Below, one piece after another: positions 1 through 9,838 of a DNA stretch of 9,838 nucleotides. The stretch spans positions 1 through 9,838 of the forward strand of contig JAKQQP010000611.1 of NCBI GenBank assembly GCA_029564115.1, in the 5' to 3' direction. The notes beneath the pieces were generated by a model, which was not told where the DNA came from, did no database searches, and was given only the letters and a program-made list of their open reading frames with translations. This DNA comes from Candidatus Rifleibacteriota bacterium. Lineage in GTDB: Bacteria; Riflebacteria; Ozemobacteria; Ozemobacterales; Ozemobacteraceae. A program made the position numbers and the translations under genes. Every line of letters begins with the position of its first letter. The stretch's first letter is position 1.

Positions 1-2914
1 AATCTTTGCGCAGCACGAAGAGCGGGTTGGCGTCGCCCATGATGCCCGATTCGTTCCATTCGACTTTCAGCCAGGGCGGGTTACCGAGAATCAGGTCGAA
101 ACCGCCGTTGTCGGCGAAAATGTCGGCAAATGCCAGCTCCCAGTGGAAGAAACGGTAGCGTTCTGCCAGAGCCTGAACCTGCGCGAGATGCGGGGTTTTA
201 TCGCACAGCTCGTTGATGTCGACAAAGCCGTGTTCGTCGACCTGGGCGATGAATTTTTCTTTCGGCGCCGTATCAGGAAACAACGACAACTGTTCAGCCT
301 TTGTTGGCGCACTGCTGAACAGATCGCCCTGCAGAATCAGTGAGAGTTCGAGCAGCATTTCCTGGCGGGTCGGCAGCAGATCGGCCTTGTCGATCGGCCA
401 GAACCACAGGGCGCACCAGTAGTCCATCGCCAGTTTAAGACGGCGGTAGGGGCTCGAACTGCGCACATCGTCGGTCAGAAACTCGCTCTGATAGATTTTA
501 TCCTTGAGCCCCATGGCGGTATTCTGCCGGCCATCAGGCGCGGGTTGCCCGAAAATCTGCATGCTGTCGCTGGTGCGCCGGCGAATATTGCGCAGCTCGC
601 TGATATGCCGCGCCCAGAGCCTGTCGACCGCCTGCGAAAGCTGCTGCAAATGTTCGACCTCATCTTCGCTGTAAGGGGCGCAGAAATCTTTGCGCCATTT
701 GTCGATCAGCTTGAGCTGGGCCGGGCGCATGCCCTTGATGACCTTGTCATTGAAAGCCGCCATGCCTTTATCGACAGTCAGAAAATGATAAACCTGGCCG
801 GCCTGCAGGCTGGTGCCCGGCATGATGCGTTCGGGCACCATATCGAGCCAGAGCTGCCCGGTTTTATTGCCTTTGCGCAGGTTTTCGGCGGCAAAAGTCT
901 GCCGCCGCGCCCCGATCAGCGAATTGCCGCAGAACAGCTGCATGCCGAACCAGGGCACGAAACCGCCCGGGTGAATGGCGTTGAGCCACAGCGACACTTC
1001 GGCCAGTTCGACGGCAACCGGGTTAAGGTCGACACCAAAAACATTGTTGTCGGCAAGAAAGGTTTTAACTTTCTGCTTTTCGGTGGCATACTGATCGGCC
1101 GGTATCGTCTCGCCAAGTTCTTTCTGCTTGCGCTGCAGGTAAGCCTCGGCCAGCTGATTGACCGCTTCGTTAAGAAAGGCGGCGCTGCCCATTGCCGGTT
1201 CGCAGACCTTCAGGTGCAGTATTTCGTCGGCACTGCGGTTCTGCAGCAATTCTTTGAGAGCGAAATGCACCAGACAGTTCGTCAACGACTCGGGTGTGTA
1301 GTATGAAGCCGAGTTTTCGCGGTCACGCCCGGCCATGCGATAGATAAAAGTGCCCTTCGGGTAACAGAGCAGGGTGCCGTCGGTGTTAAAAACCTTTTCT
1401 TCGTCACTGTAGGCCGCCAGGTCTTCGCCTTTGACAAAATAGGCGGTTTCGAGTTCGTTGCGCGCTTCGCCGGCCGGTTTGACCTCATAAAGATCGCTTT
1501 CGGCAAGAAAGCCGCGATACGACAACAGGGCTTCGTAAACAGCGCCAAGCTGGTTGATGCCAAGCTGGGCGTATGAAATGCGGCCACGCCGGCCCCGGCC
1601 GCCACGACCGCCGCCCGGTGCCGACAGCGACATCTTTTCGATGACCTGTTGCAGCACGAAATTGCGAAATTTGACGCTGCCGAGCAGTTTGAGTTTCTGC
1701 GGGTCGAAAAGATGCGACTGCAGAGCCGTCATCCTGAATGTATCATGGTCGGTCTGCTTCTCGTCAGGGTTGAGGTGCAGCTGCCTGGCATCATGACGTG
1801 GCTGAAAACCGTTAAAAACCAGCTCAAAAAGCATCTGCAGCGACTCGTGAATATAATGACCGTTGCGTGATTCTTCGCTGGTGAGCTGCAGCATCTCGAG
1901 ATTACGCAGTGATTCAAGACTGTAACCGTCGCGATAAACGGTCGATTTCATCGGCGCATATTCAAGTTCGGGCCGGGCTTCGATGAAAAACAGAAACAGC
2001 AGCCGGTACATGTAGCGCAGGCACTCGATGCTCAGCTGCCCCGCCAGGTCGCGGTCAAAGATGCCGATCTTGTGGGTGCGCAGGTAATGAATCGCTTCGT
2101 TGCCGAGCAGTTCGATCGACTGGCGCAACGCGTATTTGAGGTCTTCCGAGACCGAATAGGCATGCCGGTGCGAGTTTTCGTCGAGGTTGTCGAGCAGGCA
2201 CAGACCGTCGGCCGGGCAGATGCAGTCGCGATGCAGCAGTGCCGATGTCACCTGCAGGGTCGAATTTTCGCGCCGCCCGAGAATTTCGCCGAGATCGAAT
2301 CTGATACTGCGCTTCTGGTTCCATTTATTGCGGTCAATGAGCATCAGCTGCGAAGAGCCGCAGACAATAACCCAGCGGGGCGGTTCTTCAAGCGTGAAAA
2401 CCTGCCGGGTGACGATTTCTTCGACATCGGCGCCGCCCGGCAACGACGGGGCCTTTTCACCCGCCGGCACCGAAGGCAGCTGACAGGGGTCGAACTGCGA
2501 CTGCAGCAGCACACCCTCTTCGTCATCTGTTTCGATGACAGGTATCAACCAGAGCTCAGGCGCGCCATTACGCGTGCTGACCTGCCCGATCAGCGGCAGC
2601 AGTGAACCGTCTTCGAGCTCTCTGGTTTCGCTGCGAAAATCGTAGCCAAGCACCGGCAGGAGTTCCTGCAGAAATTCATACTGCAGCTGCAGTTTTTCTG
2701 CGGGCTTACGAGCTTTGTTCAGGCGGCTGCGCATCTGAAAATACTGCGAAGCCAGGGGCGACAGGCGGGCATAAGGTGGTTTGATGCCCTCTTCGCTTTC
2801 GCGGGTTTTCCAGTTTTTGAAAGTATCTTTGAGGTCGTCTTCGAGCAGGGCGGTCAGGTAATGACTGGTATAGAATTCGTTTTCGTTGTAGATTCCGGTG
2901 AAATCGACGGTCAT
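1..2914 (-). CDS. drmMI: DrmMI-like N6-adenine DNA methyltransferase of class 1 DISARM, C-terminus cut off by the window edge
   Basis: The frame is open from the ATG at 2914-2912 to the left edge, giving 971 codons without a stop. Residues 1-20 begin MTVDFTGIYNENEFYTSHYL, an N-terminus I associate with Eco57I/PglX-type methylases. SYYTPESL (535-543) leads into the catalytic domain. SAM-binding motif I is CEPAMGSAAF (571-580), then FGVDLNPVAVELAEVSLW (626-643) and GNSLIGAR (663-670). The catalytic motif IV is NPPW (945-948), preceded by GGFDLILG, which marks an amino (N6-adenine) methylase. About 365 residues separate motifs I and IV, so a large helical insert is present. A Gly/Arg-rich stretch lies at 434-445. 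The target-recognition part should follow beyond the edge. The start overlaps the drmD stop (ATGA) and has a strong GGAGG site 6 bases upstream. The expected role is to methylate host DNA so that DISARM spares it. The alternative is a BREX PglX or a type IIG-like enzyme, but pairing with DrmD argues for DISARM. Confidence 0.88.
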   Translation of the reverse strand, partial: MTVDFTGIYNENEFYTSHYLTALLEDDLKDTFKNWKTRESEEGIKPPYARLSPLASQYFQMRSRLNKARKPAEKLQLQYEFLQELLPVLGYDFRSETRELEDGSLLPLIGQVSTRNGAPELWLIPVIETDDEEGVLLQSQFDPCQLPSVPAGEKAPSLPGGADVEEIVTRQVFTLEEPPRWVIVCGSSQLMLIDRNKWNQKRSIRFDLGEILGRRENSTLQVTSALLHRDCICPADGLCLLDNLDENSHRHAYSVSEDLKYALRQSIELLGNEAIHYLRTHKIGIFDRDLAGQLSIECLRYMYRLLFLFFIEARPELEYAPMKSTVYRDGYSLESLRNLEMLQLTSEESRNGHYIHESLQMLFELVFNGFQPRHDARQLHLNPDEKQTDHDTFRMTALQSHLFDPQKLKLLGSVKFRNFVLQQVIEKMSLSAPGGGRGGRGRRGRISYAQLGINQLGAVYEALLSYRGFLAESDLYEVKPAGEARNELETAYFVKGEDLAAYSDEEKVFNTDGTLLCYPKGTFIYRMAGRDRENSASYYTPESLTNCLVHFALKELLQNRSADEILHLKVCEPAMGSAAFLNEAVNQLAEAYLQRKQKELGETIPADQYATEKQKVKTFLADNNVFGVDLNPVAVELAEVSLWLNAIHPGGFVPWFGMQLFCGNSLIGARRQTFAAENLRKGNKTGQLWLDMVPERIMPGTSLQAGQVYHFLTVDKGMAAFNDKVIKGMRPAQLKLIDKWRKDFCAPYSEDEVEHLQQLSQAVDRLWARHISELRNIRRRTSDSMQIFGQPAPDGRQNTAMGLKDKIYQSEFLTDDVRSSSPYRRLKLAMDYWCALWFWPIDKADLLPTRQEMLLELSLILQGDLFSSAPTKAEQLSLFPDTAPKEKFIAQVDEHGFVDINELCDKTPHLAQVQALAERYRFFHWELAFADIFADNGGFDLILGNPPWLKVEWNESGIMGDANPLFVLRKD

Positions 2915-2925
2915 GCCACACCTCC
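2911..2925 (-). promoter_or_regulatory. Translational coupling site between drmD and drmMI
   Basis: On the minus strand GGAGG (2925-2921) stands 6 bases before the drmMI ATG (2914-2912), and the drmD TGA (2913-2911) overlaps it as ATGA. The ribosome-binding site is therefore inside the end of drmD. Coupled translation would keep helicase and methylase in proportion. Confidence 0.8.
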
Positions 2926-5760
2926 GCTCACTACCGCAACCACCCTTATGAATGGCTTGTCTTCGGTTGTCATCGTATCTTCGATCCATTGTATGTAGTC
3001 GTTGAACAGCCTGTCGATACGCCGCCGCTTTTCTTCTTTGCGGTTCTGGTTGTTCCGGCCGGCCGCCGCATCACTGCCAAAATCTAGTTCGAGCTGCCTG
3101 ACCTGCTTGCCGCGCAGCCTTTCAAGTGCTTCGAGATGCTGGTTGAGTTTTTCGTTGATCTGCTTTTCAAAATCTTTGCGGCTGGCGCTCATCAGCGCCC
3201 GGGTCTTTTCGACGGCTGCGGGCAAAAGACTTTGCAGCACACTGCAGGAAAAATCATGACCCGGGTTCGGGTGGGTACGGATATCAAGTTCGAGGCGTTC
3301 GATCAGTTCATGCAGGTCGCAGTCGCCGGCGAAACGGCCGGCGACAAAACGCAGGCCAAGCCAGCGGTGTATCAGCGGGTGCGCCTTGCGGTTCGGTATC
3401 AGACCCGACATGATGAAATAGCATTCATCGGCAGCCAGACAGTTCTTGAGCAGCAGCACCGGCGCTTCATGGCGGCCAAATGCCGCCAGCAGTTTGTCGT
3501 TGAGCCAGCCGACCACCGGGTTGAGTTCCCAGAGGTAGTGAATTCCGGGCCAGTTGTCTTCGCTGCGGCTGTTGACCACTTCGCGCTGCACGAGCGGCAC
3601 ATCTTCAGAAAGGGTCAGCAGACCTTTCTGCGGGGCAATTTCTGCCGGCAGGTAACGGTAACGCTGCAGCAGGTCTTCGTTGGCGGTCAGGTCGATACGC
3701 CTGAGCGCCGGGTCGAAGTTTGCCTGAATCCTGGTGGAACCGCGCAGGAATTCGATGGCCGCACGGCTGTAGCTGTAGTTGTCTTTGAACAGCGACAGAT
3801 GACTGCTGGTCGGCACTGGCTTATCGGCTTCCTCTTCTGTGTTTTCGCCGAAAAGAATGGCGAGCGGGTCGAGTTCACGGCCGGCAGAGACGGCATCGAC
3901 GAACTCTTCGGGCGTCTGGCCTTTTCCCATAGCTTCGGCAACGAGATTTTCTTCGCTGTCGACGTCGTAAACACGCATAAATTCAGCGGGGTCACCGATG
4001 TTCCTGACGGTTTCGCGGTCTTTTTCGATCAGCAGTTCAAGAATGCGGGTATCGCCTTTGATCATCGGGTTTTCGCTATCGGTGAGCAGGTAGAAGATCT
4101 CGGGGGTTTGCGTCTGGCCGTAGCGGTCGATGCGGCCGTTACGCTGCTGAAAAACCATCAGCGACCAGGGAATGTCGAAGTGAATCATGCGATGCGAGAG
4201 ATAGTGCAGGTTGATACCTTCGGAAGCGACATCGGAAGCGATGAGCAACCGCAGCGGCAGGTCTCTTCGGCCAAAGGCTTCGACGACCCTCTGCTGCTCG
4301 ATATCTGACATGGTTCCGTGCAGAATTTCGACCTGGGCGTCTTTGAGTTTGAGGTCGCGCATCAGGTTTTCGTGCAGAAACTTGAGAGTTTCGATGCGTT
4401 CGGTGAAGATCACCAGGCGGTCATCGGTATCTTTGCCGGTCCAGCCGAAGCCCTTGTTTTTATCGGTAATCACCTGCAGCAGGCGTTGATATTTTGAAAA
4501 ATCGGCGGCGGCGATGCGGCTCACCTGAGTGGCAAGGTTCTGCAGCAGATCGAGATCGCCGGTGAATTCGGGGCTGTTTTCCTTTTCGAGCTTTTTGATG
4601 CGGTTTTTCAGCGTTGCCAGACAGGCGGCAGGGCTTGAGAACAGGGCTTTTTCGAGAGTGATTCTGAAAAGATGCGTGCCGCTGCGGCGTTCGTCGATGC
4701 GACTGAAATTAAGGCCGGTGAGCGTGTCGAAGGTGGCTTCTTCGGCGGCACTCGCAGCCGCCCGGGCGGTTTTAATCTCGCGTTCTCTGAAGGCTGATTC
4801 GACCTGATATTGAATATCTTTTTTGAAACGGCGGATATAGAGGCCCTTGATATCTTCGGGGCCGTAATCGTCTGGGTTGGCGATTGCGGTCGGGTCGAGC
4901 ATGTTCATCAGGCTGGCGAAACTGCGGGCCCGGCCATCGTGCGGCGTAGCCGAGAGCATAATCAGGGTATCAGACTTACTGGAGAGCAGGCTGGCGAGCC
5001 GGGCGCGCAGAGATGAGCCGTTACCGCGCTGCGCCACGTTGTGCGCTTCGTCGATGACGATGATATCCCACCAGGCGTTTTCGATATAGGTGCGGTATTC
5101 GGTATCCTGCTTCAGTGTATCGATCGAAATGATGCTTTTGTCGTAATAGTAAAATGGGTTCTGGTTCGATGGAATACGGTTTCTGACGCGCTGAATGCCA
5201 ACCGAATCGAGCCTTACCAGCGGAATGGTGAAGCGGCACCACATTTCTTTCTGAAACTGGGTCAGCATGCTCTTAACGGTAAGCACGAGAATTCTTTTGC
5301 CTTTGCCGCGCCTGATCAGCTCAGACATGAGAATGCCCGCCTCGAGGGTTTTGCCGAGACCAACCGCGTCGGCGATAAGAATGCGCTGGCGCGGCTGTTC
5401 AAGCGCCTGGAAAGCCGGTTTCAGCTGATACTGAACGACGTCCATCGCCGCCTTGTGGCCGATGAACAGTTCGCTGCCGGTTGGCGGGGCGCTGCGCAGC
5501 AGGCTTTCGATATAAAGCAGCGAAGCCTGAAACGAGCTTGATTTATCGGGCACCAGTCTGGTGAGAGCCGGGTCGAGCACTTCGATTTTTTTCTCGATTT
5601 CGTCGAGAAAAATGGCGGTGCGATCTTTGACTATTTCTGAGATTCCGGTGGCACTGATCGCCTGGCCCCCGGTCGACGTTCTGTCAACTCTTGTCACGAG
5701 CCATTCGGCGTCTCTTACTACGATTCTTGCCCCCGGTGCCAATGTTGCAGCTGTATTCAT
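2911..5760 (-). CDS. drmD: DrmD, SNF2-family helicase of class 1 DISARM
   Basis: A 949-residue superfamily 2 helicase/translocase of the SNF2/RapA type. Motif I is ADAVGLGKT (130-138), motif II is DEAH (237-240), motif III is SAT (270-272), motif V is SDVASEGINL (509-518) and motif VI is QRNGRIDRYGQ (539-549), so both RecA lobes look intact. The N-terminal stretch PGARIVVRDAEWLVTRVDR (9-27) and the segment around FYYYDKSIISIDTLKQD (203-219) are ones I associate with DrmD. A charged, probably coiled-coil tail spans about 850-930. ATP-driven movement on DNA is expected, acting with the methylase and the core DrmABC proteins to restrict unmarked phage DNA. I chose the ATG at 5760 because it follows a GGGGG run 7 bases upstream and starts the conserved N-terminus. 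The frame stays open to a TTG at 5883, but that would add 41 residues that look non-homologous. First gene of the minus-strand operon. Confidence 0.9.
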   Translation of the reverse strand: MNTAATLAPGARIVVRDAEWLVTRVDRTSTGGQAISATGISEIVKDRTAIFLDEIEKKIEVLDPALTRLVPDKSSSFQASLLYIESLLRSAPPTGSELFIGHKAAMDVVQYQLKPAFQALEQPRQRILIADAVGLGKTLEAGILMSELIRRGKGKRILVLTVKSMLTQFQKEMWCRFTIPLVRLDSVGIQRVRNRIPSNQNPFYYYDKSIISIDTLKQDTEYRTYIENAWWDIIVIDEAHNVAQRGNGSSLRARLASLLSSKSDTLIMLSATPHDGRARSFASLMNMLDPTAIANPDDYGPEDIKGLYIRRFKKDIQYQVESAFREREIKTARAAASAAEEATFDTLTGLNFSRIDERRSGTHLFRITLEKALFSSPAACLATLKNRIKKLEKENSPEFTGDLDLLQNLATQVSRIAAADFSKYQRLLQVITDKNKGFGWTGKDTDDRLVIFTERIETLKFLHENLMRDLKLKDAQVEILHGTMSDIEQQRVVEAFGRRDLPLRLLIASDVASEGINLHYLSHRMIHFDIPWSLMVFQQRNGRIDRYGQTQTPEIFYLLTDSENPMIKGDTRILELLIEKDRETVRNIGDPAEFMRVYDVDSEENLVAEAMGKGQTPEEFVDAVSAGRELDPLAILFGENTEEEADKPVPTSSHLSLFKDNYSYSRAAIEFLRGSTRIQANFDPALRRIDLTANEDLLQRYRYLPAEIAPQKGLLTLSEDVPLVQREVVNSRSEDNWPGIHYLWELNPVVGWLNDKLLAAFGRHEAPVLLLKNCLAADECYFIMSGLIPNRKAHPLIHRWLGLRFVAGRFAGDCDLHELIERLELDIRTHPNPGHDFSCSVLQSLLPAAVEKTRALMSASRKDFEKQINEKLNQHLEALERLRGKQVRQLELDFGSDAAAGRNNQNRKEEKRRRIDRLFNDYIQWIEDTMTTEDKPFIRVVAVVSGGVA

Positions 5761-5832
5761 TCTCTGACCCCCGCTGTTTTTCTGAGAATGATACTCTCGC
5801 GCCCGGCAAATGGCAAGCAAAGATGTCTGCAG

Positions 5833-5855
5833 CGCCGGTTCAATAAATTCCGGCG
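5833..5855 (-). repeat. GC-rich inverted repeat in the drmD leader
   Basis: CGCCGG (5833-5838) and CCGGCG (5850-5855) form a perfect 6-bp stem around an 11-base AT-rich loop, in the stretch that would be the 5' leader of drmD if transcription starts near 5934. No T-run follows on the minus strand, so it is not a simple intrinsic terminator. It could be a leader hairpin or chance. The surrounding 5761-5883 stretch is an in-frame but probably untranslated leader and shows no other gene. Confidence 0.35.
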
Positions 5856-5892
5856 ACCGGAAGCGGCTAAGTTCCGTGCACAAGCAAACCTC

Positions 5893-5912
5893 AAAAAATA
5901 AGTTTATTTTTT
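5893..5912. repeat. Perfect AT-rich palindrome between the divergent genes
   Basis: AAAAAATAA (5893-5901) and TTATTTTTT (5904-5912) are perfect reverse complements around a GT centre. The palindrome lies just upstream of the candidate plus-strand -35 box and just downstream of the candidate drmD start of transcription. It could be a protein-binding site or an easily melted, bent A/T tract. Low complexity makes chance possible. Confidence 0.4.
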
Positions 5913-5915
5913 ATA

Positions 5916-5945
5916 TTGACTTTTTAAATTTTCAGTTGCTATTAT
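5916..5945 (+). promoter_or_regulatory. Candidate sigma-70 promoter for the rightward genes
   Basis: TTGACT (5916-5921), an 18-base spacer and TATTAT (5940-5945) make a good vegetative promoter, five of six matches in each box. Transcription would start near 5952 and give a leader of about 330 bases containing the whole AGTAC array. A second, perfect -35 (TTGACA, 5966-5971) has no convincing -10 at a proper distance. A weaker promoter closer to 6283 is not excluded. Confidence 0.5.
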
Positions 5946-5946
5946 A
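5941..5946 (-). promoter_or_regulatory. Candidate -10 box of the drmD promoter
   Basis: Read on the minus strand, 5946-5941 is TATAAT, a perfect -10 box. The hexamers at 16-18 bases spacing (for example TCAAAG at 5969-5964) are poor -35 boxes and no extended -10 TG is present, so the promoter may need an activator. It overlaps the -10 of the opposing promoter. It would leave a leader of about 170 bases before drmD. Confidence 0.42.
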
Positions 5947-6030
5947 AGTTTGTGAAAACAATTCTTTGACAATTTAAAAGCCTTTATTAAACGAATAATT
6001 AGTACTTTTACATCATTACAAAGTACAGTT

Positions 6031-6100
6031 TTTACATGCGAAAAGTACTAACGGTATTATGCACAAGTACATGATAAATCAGTACTCTAAAGCATGTAAA
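6031..6100. repeat. Inverted pair TTTACATGC / GCATGTAAA inside the array
   Basis: TTTACATGC (6031-6039) and its exact reverse complement GCATGTAAA (6092-6100) lie 61 bp apart. The shorter TTTACAT also occurs at 6007-6013 and 6217-6223. This may be a second binding motif interleaved with AGTAC. The nine-base match in an AT-rich region is suggestive, not decisive. Confidence 0.4.
6057..6065 (+). promoter_or_regulatory. Match to the DnaA box consensus within the array
   Basis: TTATGCACA (6057-6065) fits the TTATNCACA consensus of DnaA boxes and sits directly before the fourth AGTAC copy. It is a single box. With the neighbouring AT-rich stretch (about 5884-6000) it raises the possibility of a replication origin or of DnaA control, but one box alone can be chance. 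Confidence 0.35.
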
Positions 6101-6282
6101 TAGTACAGTTAAAAAGTTGTTGAAGTACATGCCGGAGTCAGCTCGAAGTACAAAATTCTGGTCACGATAGTACAAGATGGCTTCGTCCTTTAAGTACCAG
6201 TCAGCCGCGTTCGTTATTTACATTTCTTCCGGAACAAGGATCGACAGATCTTTTTCAATATTTAACTTAAGGAGAAATTCAA

Positions 6283-6567
6283 ATGTCCAGACTCAATAAC
6301 CTTCCTCAGACCGACTTCTCAGTTTTCCGCAAACTTATTATCGAATGCCTCATCAATAATGGTGGCAAAGCCAGCCGACAGAATGTACTGAGCTTCATCG
6401 ACAACAAGCTGCAGGGCCATTTTCTGCCCGGCGATCTTGTCTGGCGCGAAAAAACCTTAGAAGAAGCCTGGCGCAACAACGCCTCATGGATGCGCCAACG
6501 GCTGGTGAACGAAGGGGTAATCGACAACAACGCCCCGCGCGGCATCTGGAAACTTACCAACAACTGA
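6283..6567 (+). CDS. Stand-alone winged-helix protein resembling the Mrr N-terminal domain, probable DNA-binding regulator
   Basis: A 94-residue protein with a strong AAGGAG site (6269-6274) 8 bases before its ATG. Its layout is a winged helix: helix 1 about 11-26, helix 2 about 30-43 (ASRQNVLSFIDNKL), a loop, a long helix about 58-78 (from TLEEAWRNNASWMRQRL), and a wing ending RGIWKLT (86-92). The pattern of a tryptophan-containing helix, then G-x-I and RG-x-W-x-LT, resembles the N-terminal domain of Mrr-type restriction proteins. Here the protein ends right after that domain, with no nuclease domain and no sign of a frameshift, so it looks like a DNA-binding module on its own. It lies 86 bp to the right of the AGTAC array, which makes autoregulation and control of the divergent DISARM operon likely. 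This role is inferred. Being a small replication initiator is a less likely alternative. Confidence 0.8.
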   Translation: MSRLNNLPQTDFSVFRKLIIECLINNGGKASRQNVLSFIDNKLQGHFLPGDLVWREKTLEEAWRNNASWMRQRLVNEGVIDNNAPRGIWKLTNN

Positions 6568-6716
6568 AGATTAATTACCTTTTCAGAAAAATTTATGCTA
6601 AAAGTAACGGCAAGCGTTTGGAAAGGGGTCCATTTTCCTTTTCCCAGGCTTTCCGGGGAAATCAAACCGATTATCAAAAGATAAGGGTTTAATTTATAAA
6701 AAATGAGGTACGTGAC

Positions 6717-7205
6717 ATGAAAAAGTTCGTTGCTATTCTTATTGCCTGCATTTCTATTCTAACAGTAACCGGTTGTGGTGGCGGGGGCGGTGGTGGTGGC
6801 CCGGCACCCGTCACCTCACAGGCTGACCAGAATCTGATTGCCAGCATCATCGGAACCTGGAAACTCAGCCAGGCAAGTAAAAGCGGTGTTCTGGTTCCGG
6901 TATTGCCCAATAGTTCGGGCAATGTTGGTACCATCACTTTTAATTCTGACGGCACCGCCAATTCGACAGACTATACCCTCACGACCTATTATTCGGCATC
7001 ACCAGGTTCGCTCCCCAGTGAAAACGACTCATATCAGACAACAAACGATCCTCCCGATATTTCTGGTGGCACCTGGACTGCCTCCGACGGAAAACTTTAC
7101 ACAACAAATTCAACAGGTGCAACATTCGTGAATTCGGTTGAAATCAAGAATGGTGAGCTCTACCAGACAATGTCGGATGGAACACAAAGAGTCTGGAAAA
7201 GATAA
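6717..7205 (+). CDS. Secreted lipoprotein, possibly lipocalin-like
   Basis: A 162-residue protein preceded by TGAGGT (GAGG at 6705-6708, 8 bases before ATG). MKK, a hydrophobic segment (4-17) and the lipobox VTGC with Cys20 form a type II signal peptide. Mature residues 2-9 are eight glycines, a flexible tether common in lipoproteins of Gram-negative bacteria. There is no Asp after the Cys, so outer-membrane sorting is plausible. The remainder is rich in Ser, Thr, Gly and short beta strands, with IIGTWKLS (44-51), GTITFNSDGT (71-80) and GGTW (117-120), a pattern seen in small lipocalin-like beta-barrel domains. The assignment to that fold is tentative and no ligand or function can be named. 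It is odd between a DNA-binding protein and a cytoplasmic ATPase. It may be a passenger gene, or an envelope component of the system. Confidence 0.85.
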   Translation: MKKFVAILIACISILTVTGCGGGGGGGGPAPVTSQADQNLIASIIGTWKLSQASKSGVLVPVLPNSSGNVGTITFNSDGTANSTDYTLTTYYSASPGSLPSENDSYQTTNDPPDISGGTWTASDGKLYTTNSTGATFVNSVEIKNGELYQTMSDGTQRVWKR

Positions 7206-7210
7206 GGCAA

Positions 7211-7227
7211 CGTCAATCCTATTGACG
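7211..7227. repeat. Perfect 7-bp inverted repeat before the GHKL ATPase gene
   Basis: CGTCAAT (7211-7217) and ATTGACG (7221-7227) are exact reverse complements around CCT. They lie in the 39-base gap between the lipoprotein stop and the ATPase start, 7 bases before the AAAGG ribosome-binding site. No T-run follows, so it is not a standard terminator. It may be an operator or an mRNA hairpin that tunes or insulates translation of the ATPase. Confidence 0.55.
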
Positions 7228-7244
7228 ACTATGAAAGGCCAGTT

Positions 7245-9838
7245 ATGAAAGAGCTTTGGGGTAAGTGGTTTGAAGCCTTGAGTCGTGACAGAGAAGAAAG
7301 TGCCAGAATGTTGGCAAAACCCTCAATGAGCGGGTTTCAACAGAGTGTCGTCAATAAATACTCAGATCAGGCTCATTTTATTTACGAACTGCTGCAGAAT
7401 GCTGATGATGCCGGGGCAACCAGAGCCCGGTTCATTCTGACCGATGCAGGCCTGTATTTTTTTCATAATGGCAACGTAACCTTTTCGGTATCTGACCCGG
7501 CAACCGAGGGCCAGGACAAGGTTAGTGGCAAACTTGGTCACGTCAATGCAATTACCGCAATTGCAAATTCAAACAAGGATTCGGACACCACTATCGGGAA
7601 ATTTGGTGTGGGTTTCAAGGCTGTTTTTCAATACACTCAGACCCCACACATTTATGACCCTGGTCTTCGCTTCAGAATCGAAAGATTTATTGTTCCAGTA
7701 CAGCTGCACAACGACATTGAAGGTCGCAATGCTGACGAAACCTGTTTCTGGCTGCCCTTTAACAGTCCGGAAACGAGCCCGAAAGAGGCTTACGCGAACA
7801 TCCTGGAGAAACTGAATTCTCTGGTTTTTCCGACCCTGTTTCTTGCAAACCTGAAATGCGTGTCTTTTGAAGCAGAAGGACATACTGGTTCATACTCACA
7901 AAAGAATGCAAAAAAATCTGAAGTGAACGGCACGATCTGCCAGTTGATTACACTTACCAGAGAAAGCAACGAAGACAAATTCACACAGAAAATGTGGCTA
8001 TTTTCGCGCTTTATCGAAGGAACCAGACATGCTTATTCAACGGGTTTCTTTCTCAGCGCCAATAAAAAGCTGATACCAGCCCAGCATCCGGCATTCTGCT
8101 TCTTTCCGACCAAAGAAAACACCGGCCTCAACTTTATCATCAATGCCCCTTTTCTTCTAACTGACAGTCGCGAGGGTATCAAAGCCGGAGACCAGCATAA
8201 CAGGGACCTGGTGCAAAAACTTGCGCAACTCGCCGCTGATTCATTGCTGATTTTGCGTGATATTGGCCTGCAAAGCAAAACCACCCTGATCGATGACAAT
8301 ATAATCAACCTTATTCCCTACAAAGAGTCTGTGTTCACAGATATCAACGACCGTTCCAAAATTTCGTTCAAGCCTTTTTTTACTGAAATCAGAAAAAAGA
8401 TGCATGAAGCCCCCTTATTGCCGGCGGCCGATAGCGAGTATTCAAACAAACCCAATTCATACTGGTTTCAAGACAAACCTGTTTTTGAATTATTCACAAA
8501 TAAACAACTTGGGCAACTCACAAAAAACTTGAAAGCCAGATGGGTCTTCACAGAACTTGCGAGAAACCAGACCGAAGGCGAAAAAGACACAAACCAATAC
8601 CCCCCGGCTTTCCCCAGGCGCGACTATCTGACAGCTTGTGTGGCGGCCTGGTTCGATTTTGAAGCAATATCCAAGAAAATTGGCGGCGATTTTATCCGCC
8701 AACAGACGCTTAAGTGGCTGCACAAATTCTACGCTTATCTTGGCGAAAACTCTTCCAGAGCAAAAATTGTTCGTAGACTACCCATCTTCATTGACGAACA
8801 TGGCAATGCCGTCGCAGCCTTCGACGAACGCGATCAACCAGTGCTTTTTCTACCGGATGAAACTATCACCGGCTACACAACCGTCAAAAAAGAATTGCTT
8901 ACCAACAAGACAACCAGGGAGTTCTTTGAAAAATTCGGCATCAAAAAGCCCAGTCTTCGCGATGATATCTACAACCGGGTATTGCCCCAATACAACAAAA
9001 ATGTTGAGATAGATACCAATGAGCATTTTCTGAAATTTTTCAAATACTTCAAGGAAGAATGCCCTCAAACTGAGATCAATAACTTTGTCTCGGAGATAAA
9101 GGACAAAAGCTTCGTTTTGTGCAAATTACAGGGTAACACAAAGGTTTACAGAGCTCGGCCTGGCGAAATTTACTGGCCAGATGCGGACCTAATTGAATAT
9201 TTTGCAGCAAAACCCGACACCAGGTTTCTCGATCTCGAGTCATATCAAAAATTGCTCCCAGCCGGGGATCATAAGTTGTTTCAGGATTTTTTTCACATGC
9301 TTGGGGTAAGGCGTGAAATTGCTGTATTTACGAACATAATAGAAGATGTTTCTGAAGCATTGAAGCTTGGTTTCCCTGTGGAAAAAGGCAGACGAGATGT
9401 ATGGCATGACAAACAGTTAGATGGCGCCATACAAATTCTAGACAATCTCAATAAGGTCAGATCTATTTCGCTTTGGAAACAATTGTGCAAGATAGCAGGC
9501 AATCATGGAGATGATGGATTTTCAGAGTTATTGAATGGAGAGTATAGGTATTATTTTCGGTTCACCAGAAAAAGAAGTTTTGTATCAACAGAAACAAAGC
9601 GATTAACGAACAAACCCTGGCTCTATGATGTTTCCGGCCAGTGTTTCGCGTCCAACGAGATAACTGTTCAAAAACTTGCCCCTGAATATCTTGCCAACGA
9701 TAAAGAAGCGCGGATATTGATTTCTTTTCTACAGATTCACGACGAGAATGATGATTCTGCCCACCTTAGTGATGAAGAAAAGCGGCTTATTGCTCTAGCC
9801 AAAGAATTTGAGGATGTTTCACCTGATGAAATCCGTGA
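7245..9838 (+). CDS. Large sacsin-like GHKL (Hsp90-type) ATPase, C-terminus cut off by the window edge
   Basis: The frame is open from the ATG at 7245 to the right edge, 864 residues visible. AAAGG (7234-7238) stands 6 bases before the start. The N-terminal Bergerat ATP-binding fold is clear. The N-box is ELLQNADDA (48-56), with E48, N52 and D55 matching the E-x-x-x-N-x-x-D pattern of Hsp90. HNG (74-76) is found where other GHKL proteins have D-x-G, and the glycine lid is GKFGVGFKAVF (118-128). CFFPTKENTGLNFIIN and APFLLTDSREGI (285-312) are typical of the sacsin-like second half of the domain. The remaining 500 or so residues are alpha/beta without motifs I recognise. Such proteins often end in a DUF3883-type domain, which would lie outside the window. 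GHKL ATPases act as conformational switches or chaperone-like motors, and sacsin-like ones recur in bacterial defence islands. A defence role here is inferred from position. Codon use becomes AT-richer to the right, unlike the DISARM genes. Confidence 0.88.
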   Translation, partial: MKELWGKWFEALSRDREESARMLAKPSMSGFQQSVVNKYSDQAHFIYELLQNADDAGATRARFILTDAGLYFFHNGNVTFSVSDPATEGQDKVSGKLGHVNAITAIANSNKDSDTTIGKFGVGFKAVFQYTQTPHIYDPGLRFRIERFIVPVQLHNDIEGRNADETCFWLPFNSPETSPKEAYANILEKLNSLVFPTLFLANLKCVSFEAEGHTGSYSQKNAKKSEVNGTICQLITLTRESNEDKFTQKMWLFSRFIEGTRHAYSTGFFLSANKKLIPAQHPAFCFFPTKENTGLNFIINAPFLLTDSREGIKAGDQHNRDLVQKLAQLAADSLLILRDIGLQSKTTLIDDNIINLIPYKESVFTDINDRSKISFKPFFTEIRKKMHEAPLLPAADSEYSNKPNSYWFQDKPVFELFTNKQLGQLTKNLKARWVFTELARNQTEGEKDTNQYPPAFPRRDYLTACVAAWFDFEAISKKIGGDFIRQQTLKWLHKFYAYLGENSSRAKIVRRLPIFIDEHGNAVAAFDERDQPVLFLPDETITGYTTVKKELLTNKTTREFFEKFGIKKPSLRDDIYNRVLPQYNKNVEIDTNEHFLKFFKYFKEECPQTEINNFVSEIKDKSFVLCKLQGNTKVYRARPGEIYWPDADLIEYFAAKPDTRFLDLESYQKLLPAGDHKLFQDFFHMLGVRREIAVFTNIIEDVSEALKLGFPVEKGRRDVWHDKQLDGAIQILDNLNKVRSISLWKQLCKIAGNHGDDGFSELLNGEYRYYFRFTRKRSFVSTETKRLTNKPWLYDVSGQCFASNEITVQKLAPEYLANDKEARILISFLQIHDENDDSAHLSDEEKRLIALAKEFEDVSPDEIR

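Follow-up and report, generated by a model that had tools for sequence, protein, structure and literature searches.

A row of AGTAC signals as a probable multi-site control switch beside defence-like genes in Candidatus Rifleibacteriota

Genes and features of the locus

The DNA considered here is a stretch of 9,838 nucleotides from an uncultured Candidatus Rifleibacteriota bacterium, and this whole stretch is called the window (Table 1). Genes for an adenine methylase and a SNF2 helicase occupy its left part, and an intergenic row of ten AGTAC pentamers separates the helicase gene from a gene for a winged-helix-like protein of 94 residues. The array had been described in advance as lying beside a small winged-helix gene and defence genes, and adjoining genes of winged-helix-like and defence-like character were confirmed. 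In the region 6717-9836, the lipoprotein gene is followed by a gene for a sacsin-type ATPase that matches TmtA models (1.6e-44). No tRNA genes were found in the window.

Table 1. Positions of the features in the window and of two further AGTAC clusters in the related genome G001
Feature	Sequence	Position	Strand	Remarks
Type IIG/DrmMI-like adenine methylase	Window	2..2989	-	Truncated by window edge
DrmD-like SNF2 helicase	Window	2911..5760	-	Divergent from array; ATG read at 5760
Promoter-like site TTGCCA-17-TATCAT	Window	5788..5816	-	Faces helicase gene; same hexamers and spacing at the orthologous locus L001
Promoter-like site TTGACT-18-TATTAT	Window	5916..5945	+	Faces winged-helix gene, upstream of array; 10/12 consensus match
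Array of ten AGTAC cores	Window	6001..6197	+	Blocks 6001-6070 (4 sites) and 6081-6197 (6 sites), 15-bp step between
Winged-helix-like protein, 94 aa	Window	6283..6567	+	Candidate array reader; Mrr_N 26.2 bits, below cut-off 29.5
Lipocalin-like lipoprotein, glycine-rich	Window	6717-7205		Right of 94-aa gene
C345 cluster	G001	2223-2310		Five AGTAC, all AGTACT; steps 22, 24, 23, 14
C715 cluster	G001	2362-2411		Three AGTAC; steps 23, 22

The preliminary description had also referred to a DISARM operon, and the window does resemble DISARM in having a DrmD-like helicase followed by an adenine methylase. DrmD was the best PADLOC model of the helicase (7.4e-100); however, its score against the curated DrmD model NF038317 was 354.2 bits, below the cut-off of 610, and the methylase was matched best by a type IIG model (6.7e-146), with DrmMI second (1.9e-55). 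Furthermore, DrmA, DrmB, and DrmC, which are typical DISARM parts (PMC9142583), were not found in the window, which ends on its left side within the methylase gene. The operon label is therefore not upheld, and the DISARM identity of the locus is not established. Helicase-methylase pairs also occur in other genomes (such as G027, G039, and G009), and seven neighbouring open reading frames (ORFs) at the G027 and G039 loci gave no DrmA, DrmB, or DrmC match at a PADLOC E-value of 1e-10 or lower. At the G039 locus (L147 518-8672, contig C308), a helicase, a large methylase, and a protein matching PDC-S02/PD_DExK stand in a row, which is a partly DISARM-like but different cassette. In the open-access PMC literature, nothing was found on a drmD-linked transcriptional regulator or promoter in DISARM.

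Six close relatives of the 94-residue protein (76-98% identity, each 94 aa) were detected, the same six being returned by a second, alignment-based search, and the motifs WRNNASW and PRG are invariant in this family. The AlphaFold2 model (helix-strand-helix-helix-strand, pLDDT 76.7, pTM 0.69) is consistent with a winged helix, and the fold matches are weak: Foldseek gave no match at an E-value of 0.001 or better, and winged-helix proteins appear in its top list, including STIV F93 and, in second place, TubR (6aht, E 0.059, rmsd 10.4). No solved structure related by sequence was found (best E 0.84). The protein is a plausible, putative binder of the array.

Seven promoter-like sites were counted in the region, compared with 2.7 in shuffles. 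The site facing the winged-helix gene aligns with a site at the orthologous locus L001 (described below), TTGACA-18-TATAAT, that matches the consensus at 12/12 positions, and only 19/30 bases of the whole 30-bp stretch are identical between the two. The array starts 56 bp past the -10 box of the site at 5916-5945 and ends 86 bp before the winged-helix start codon, and it thus lies where an autoregulatory operator would sit. Because the promoter-like site is upstream in both loci, the array is probably part of the transcribed leader of the 94-aa gene.

The AGTAC array

On the forward strand, AGTAC begins at 6001, 6022, 6044, 6066, 6081, 6102, 6124, 6147, 6169, and 6193, with steps of 21, 22, 22, 15, 21, 22, 23, 22, and 24 bp, which reproduces the span and every spacing of the preliminary description. 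The array was said to exceed chance expectation, and this view is supported by 5000 dinucleotide-preserving shuffles of positions 5991-6210 (220 bp), in which AGTAC had a mean of 0.85 and a maximum of 5 copies and the most frequent 5-mer of any type never exceeded seven. The claim that the spacers are not conserved is likewise upheld, because at each flanking position between -14 and +19 the most frequent base is shared by at most 6 of the 10 copies; mean agreement over 16 flanking columns was 0.44. Elsewhere in the window, AGTAC occurs twice, at 6385 (-) and 7697 (+). Neither a repeat finder nor Tandem Repeats Finder reported the array as a repeat family. Together with their flanking bases, sites 1 and 3 are the two arms of a perfect 11-bp inverted repeat (5999-6009/6041-6051), and the flanks of site 3 are changed in L001. 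Judged from its sequence, the row of AGTAC signals is probably a multi-site control switch beside defence-like genes, and a protein-binding array of some sort, acting at the level of DNA, appears very likely.

Conservation at an orthologous locus

The sole relative obtained from a scan of genome contigs was L001, which is SABV01000268.1 (record title: Erysipelotrichia MAG) and corresponds to contig C185 of genome G001. L001 has seven copies of AGTAC, with AGTGC at the position of site 1, and sites 9 and 10 are missing there (2 of 10 bases agree). When sites 1-8 were aligned, 39 of 40 core bases were identical between the window and L001, compared with 59 of 110 spacer bases, and moving the mask of core positions 5-10 bases to either side reduced the agreement to 0.33-0.62. 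The steps in L001 (22, 22, 22, 14, 21, 22, and 23 bp) are all within 1 bp of those in the window, and five of the seven are equal. The recurrence of cores with diverging spacers, which the preliminary description had proposed as a check, was therefore found at the single orthologous locus identified. Retention of sites while spacers drift, the behaviour expected of a multi-site cooperative operator, was thus seen at one orthologous locus in one related genome, which provides all of the comparative support for the operator reading. The kept cores and spacing amid drifted spacers are the strongest evidence in the case.

Between the window and L001, the promoter-like site, the array, and the winged-helix gene are conserved, not the helicase-methylase pair. 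In L001, the helicase gene is cut short at about 42 codons, a ZorD-like helicase is found beyond the winged-helix gene, and the methylase of the window has no match in the G001 contigs. The L001 locus is a rebuilt one, with the truncated helicase gene and a guanylate-cyclase ORF beyond it (1-2054) and the ZorD-like helicase past the winged-helix gene (2908-5079). The earlier idea of a control element dedicated to the drmD locus is not supported by these findings, since L001 keeps eight site positions despite its truncated helicase gene and the missing methylase match, and since no phased pentamer with at least four copies at 20-25 bp was found at 30 loci that encode distantly related DrmD-like helicases (identity of at most 33%), a setting that would also overlook the three-site C715 cluster. 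In five PF14338 loci of the phylum, no pentamer occurred at least five times in phase at 9-26 bp.

The winged-helix reading frame of L001 is split into residues 1-58 and 56-94, owing to either a genuine lesion or a fault in the assembly, and G001 yielded no second copy. Since the sole copy found has this split frame, the arrays of G001 may be without a reader, and the split, if real and not an assembly error, weighs against the winged-helix protein as the reader. Directly before the winged-helix start, a leader block (6238-6282) is identical in L001 at 40 of 45 positions, far above the array spacers, and could possibly be a second control element.

Further AGTAC clusters and phylum survey

Two further clusters, C345 and C715, were found in G001. 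Within the former, a 19-bp inverted repeat (L022 2214-2259) carries one AGTACT site of the array in each arm, and a search for the C345 array elsewhere in G001 matched only itself and its own inverted repeat. A HEPN_Swt1-SNF2 helicase gene on the opposite strand starts 111 bp from the C715 cluster, and the cluster itself is inside a 194-codon stop-free frame whose corresponding ORF is mostly antisense to that gene. No winged-helix match was found beside C345 or C715, the family being found at C185 only. Promoter-like sites near C345 (2 vs. 2.4 in shuffles) and near C715 (2 vs. 1.4) were not above shuffles.

The pair pattern AGTAC-N16-19-AGTAC gave 12 forward and 3 reverse matches in G001, compared with 34 and 28 for the reversed control; 10 of the 12 forward matches fall in the three clusters, and the other two in long stop-free frames. 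For the three-site pattern, 6 forward and 2 reverse matches were found in G001, against 0 and 2 for the reversed control. Across 39 genomes of the phylum, the three-site pattern matched in six and its reversed control in 21, so a lone three-site match means little, and all nine three-site places in the 38 genomes other than G001 sit in stop-free frames of at least 339 codons. The case rests on intergenic position, longer arrays, and conservation. The winged-helix alignment matched in two of the 39 genomes, G001 and G015 (a distant 190-aa protein), and only G001 contains the close winged-helix family (best E 1.5e-30), just as only G001 has clusters that lie outside long conserved frames.

When the search was relaxed to a three-site GTAC pattern, matches were obtained in 8 of the 39 genomes, among them two perfect tandem arrays with GTAC-containing units of 23 bp (G015:C140, L119 300-453) and 22 bp (G037:C1, L124 445-536), which were set aside as a different kind; the G037:C1 array precedes an ORF that appears Rep-like by eye. 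In addition, viral contigs were scanned with a four-copy AGTAC pattern, and 49 of the 50 stretches obtained gave a chain (L046 gave none). Most of these chains have conserved units or lie within ORFs of at least 120 aa; outside such ORFs, flank agreement below 0.65 was seen only in L056 and L070 (L084, at 0.62, is inside an ORF). Neither was counted as a relative: L056, with four copies in an intergenic position, may be due to chance, and in L070 the sites are almost all AGTACT and by eye partly form a hairpin. The winged-helix alignment gave 38 stretches of viral contigs with no relative among them, and plasmid and phage collections contained no match to the 94-aa protein or to positions 5900-6570 (the intergenic DNA and the gene).

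Spacing and helical register

The preliminary description suggested binding along one face of the DNA. This is unsupported, because the 15-bp step (14 bp in L001; a step of 14 bp also ends the C345 array) breaks the 10.5-bp helical phase. Phasing of the entire array at 10.5 bp was rejected, as its R of 0.31 was equalled by 28% of random-step arrays (13-26 bp), and at 11 bp, the other period for which this null was computed, the R of 0.455 was equalled by 10%. Taken separately, the blocks of four and six sites gave R of 0.97 and 0.85 at 11 bp per turn. The best-fitting period of the window array was 11.35 bp (R 0.84), with R of 0.76 at 7.3 bp. The L001 array reached 0.91 at 11.25 bp and 0.89 at 7.3 bp, the corresponding values for C345 were 0.65 and 0.41, and the C715 cluster had 0.89 at 7.3 bp. 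A unit of approximately 7.3 bp would account for the steps of 21-24 bp (three units) and of 14-15 bp (two units) together, which is a hint rather than a result. At offset +14, the 19 spacers resembled AGTAC more closely than shuffled spacers did (p 0.004 for this one among 13 offsets), and this surplus agrees weakly with a 7.3-bp register.

Proposed mechanism and alternative explanations

The explanation with the best support, which we regard as about evenly poised, is a multi-site cooperative operator of 5-bp cores read by the adjacent 94-aa winged-helix-like protein, perhaps with targets in trans as well. Each AGTAC would be a short recognition core, and affinity would arise from many subunits binding cooperatively to adjoining sites at steps of about 22 bp and once of about 15 bp, with the neighbouring protein as the most likely reader. 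Because the array lies between the promoter-like site (-10 box 56 bp before) and the start codon (86 bp after), the simplest role for proteins chained along it would be repression of the winged-helix gene, by road-block or by looping (autoregulation), and such a chain might also extend to the divergent helicase promoter, at a distance of about 185 bp. The two additional clusters in G001 would mark extra targets, one of them near the HEPN-SNF2 helicase gene. Directly observed are the array, the kept cores and steps at one orthologous locus, the further clusters in G001, and the promoter-like sites in matching aligned positions of the two loci; we infer protein binding, cooperativity, the identity of the binder, the sign of regulation, and the regulon.

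The same array could instead serve as the operator of some other DNA-binding protein whose gene lies elsewhere in the genome, the winged-helix gene being only one of the targets. Such an arrangement would fit the three clusters that G001 retains despite the split frame in the only winged-helix copy found, as well as the fact that neither C345 nor C715 adjoins a winged-helix match; however, the winged-helix gene remains next to the array while the remaining neighbours change, and the family and the clusters co-occur in one of 39 genomes, albeit as a single case, so that we consider this explanation rather unlikely. An epigenetic switch, in which the adjacent or another methylase modifies GTAC/AGTAC and expression depends on how the ten sites are methylated, might be expected from an operon with an adenine methylase and from GTAC being a palindrome that contains adenine, and GTAC is rare outside the array (12 vs. 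33.7 expected on both strands of the window). This rarity was rejected as a special feature of the window genome, because 26 of 29 other genomes, each represented by one locus, likewise have fewer GTAC than expected (pooled over all 29, 222 vs. 372.7 expected on both strands). Moreover, the cores are kept in G001, where the methylase has no match, and a methylation target does not need conserved spacing, which leaves such a switch very improbable.

An element acting in RNA, with AGUAC repeats in the winged-helix mRNA leader bound by a protein or forming a structure, is also very doubtful. The promoter-like site upstream implies that the array is probably transcribed, and two turns of an A-form helix correspond to 22 nt; on the other hand, the leader fold has only a slight advantage over shuffled sequences (z -1.74; 7 of 100 shuffles fold as well), positions 5700-6800 have no Rfam match at E-values up to 1, and no well-supported comparable promoter-like site lies upstream of the C345 and C715 clusters. 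It is highly improbable that the array is an iteron or centromere, namely what remains of the origin or partition site of a mobile element, served by a Rep- or TubR-like winged-helix protein. Although 22-bp GTAC-containing iterons occur elsewhere (G037:C1) and TubR was second among the fold matches (E 0.059), that match is weak (rmsd 10.4), units elsewhere are conserved over their full length compared with 5 bp in the window, and G001 has three separate clusters. With regard to the hallmarks of an iteron origin, whole-unit conservation was absent (flank agreement 0.44), as was an adjacent Rep gene, and a Pfam scan of five window proteins detected no Rep, TubZ, or ParM domain. A methylation switch, an RNA element, and an iteron are thus weaker explanations than an operator read by the winged-helix protein.

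If the winged-helix protein is indeed the reader, the locus might exemplify an undescribed design, in which direct 5-bp cores are covered by a chain of the 94-aa winged-helix protein in a register of about 7.3 bp, and this chain switches the protein's own gene together with a group of defence-associated helicase genes in a single regulon; we put this forward tentatively, as an unlikely possibility. The control of defence genes is less known than their action, and an operator of many identical 5-bp cores with kept spacing would silence such genes sharply, in a switch-like manner. The signature of core plus spacing may offer a simple way to find further genes under the regulator's control. With its very small protein and short DNA, the system would also provide a compact case for how low-information sites gain specificity through cooperativity.

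Comparison with known systems

The iterons of plasmids and phages with 22-bp units, such as the G037:C1 array, share with the window direct GTAC-containing repeats about 22 bp apart, but their units are conserved along the entire length and those of the window over only 5 bp. The Rep proteins of iteron plasmids are winged-helix proteins, and TubR is a small winged-helix protein that binds an array of short repeats (tubC). The likeness of the 94-aa protein to TubR consists of a weak fold match to 6aht with no sequence relation shown, and the window differs in that no TubZ was found among five of its proteins and in that there are several clusters in one genome (G001).

No description of such an AGTAC array was found in the open-access PMC literature; a case found there is cyanobacterial LexA. 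The LexA box has the form RGTACNNNDGTWCB, and it was rejected as an explanation, since this pattern has no exact match in the window and its one match with a single mismatch, at 1229, is outside the array. The cyanobacterial LexA box consensus AGTACWNWTGTACT (PMC3091678) holds AGTAC and its inverse, as one inverted pair 9 bp apart, whereas the window has a 22-bp array.

The placement of the array recalls BrxR and the WYL family of defence-island repressors. In the BrxR system (PMC9122601), R-BOX1 lies between PbrxR and brxR, a second site is located elsewhere in the island, and each R-BOX holds one pair of the 11-bp inverted repeats to which BrxR binds. Likewise, the window has a candidate regulator gene beside defence-like genes and an array between a promoter-like site and that gene. 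In contrast to the inverted repeats reported there, the window has up to ten direct 5-bp cores, and no WYL domain is present among the Pfam matches of the 94-aa protein. By analogy with that system, the array resembles the BrxR autoregulatory operator in placement and differs from it in form.
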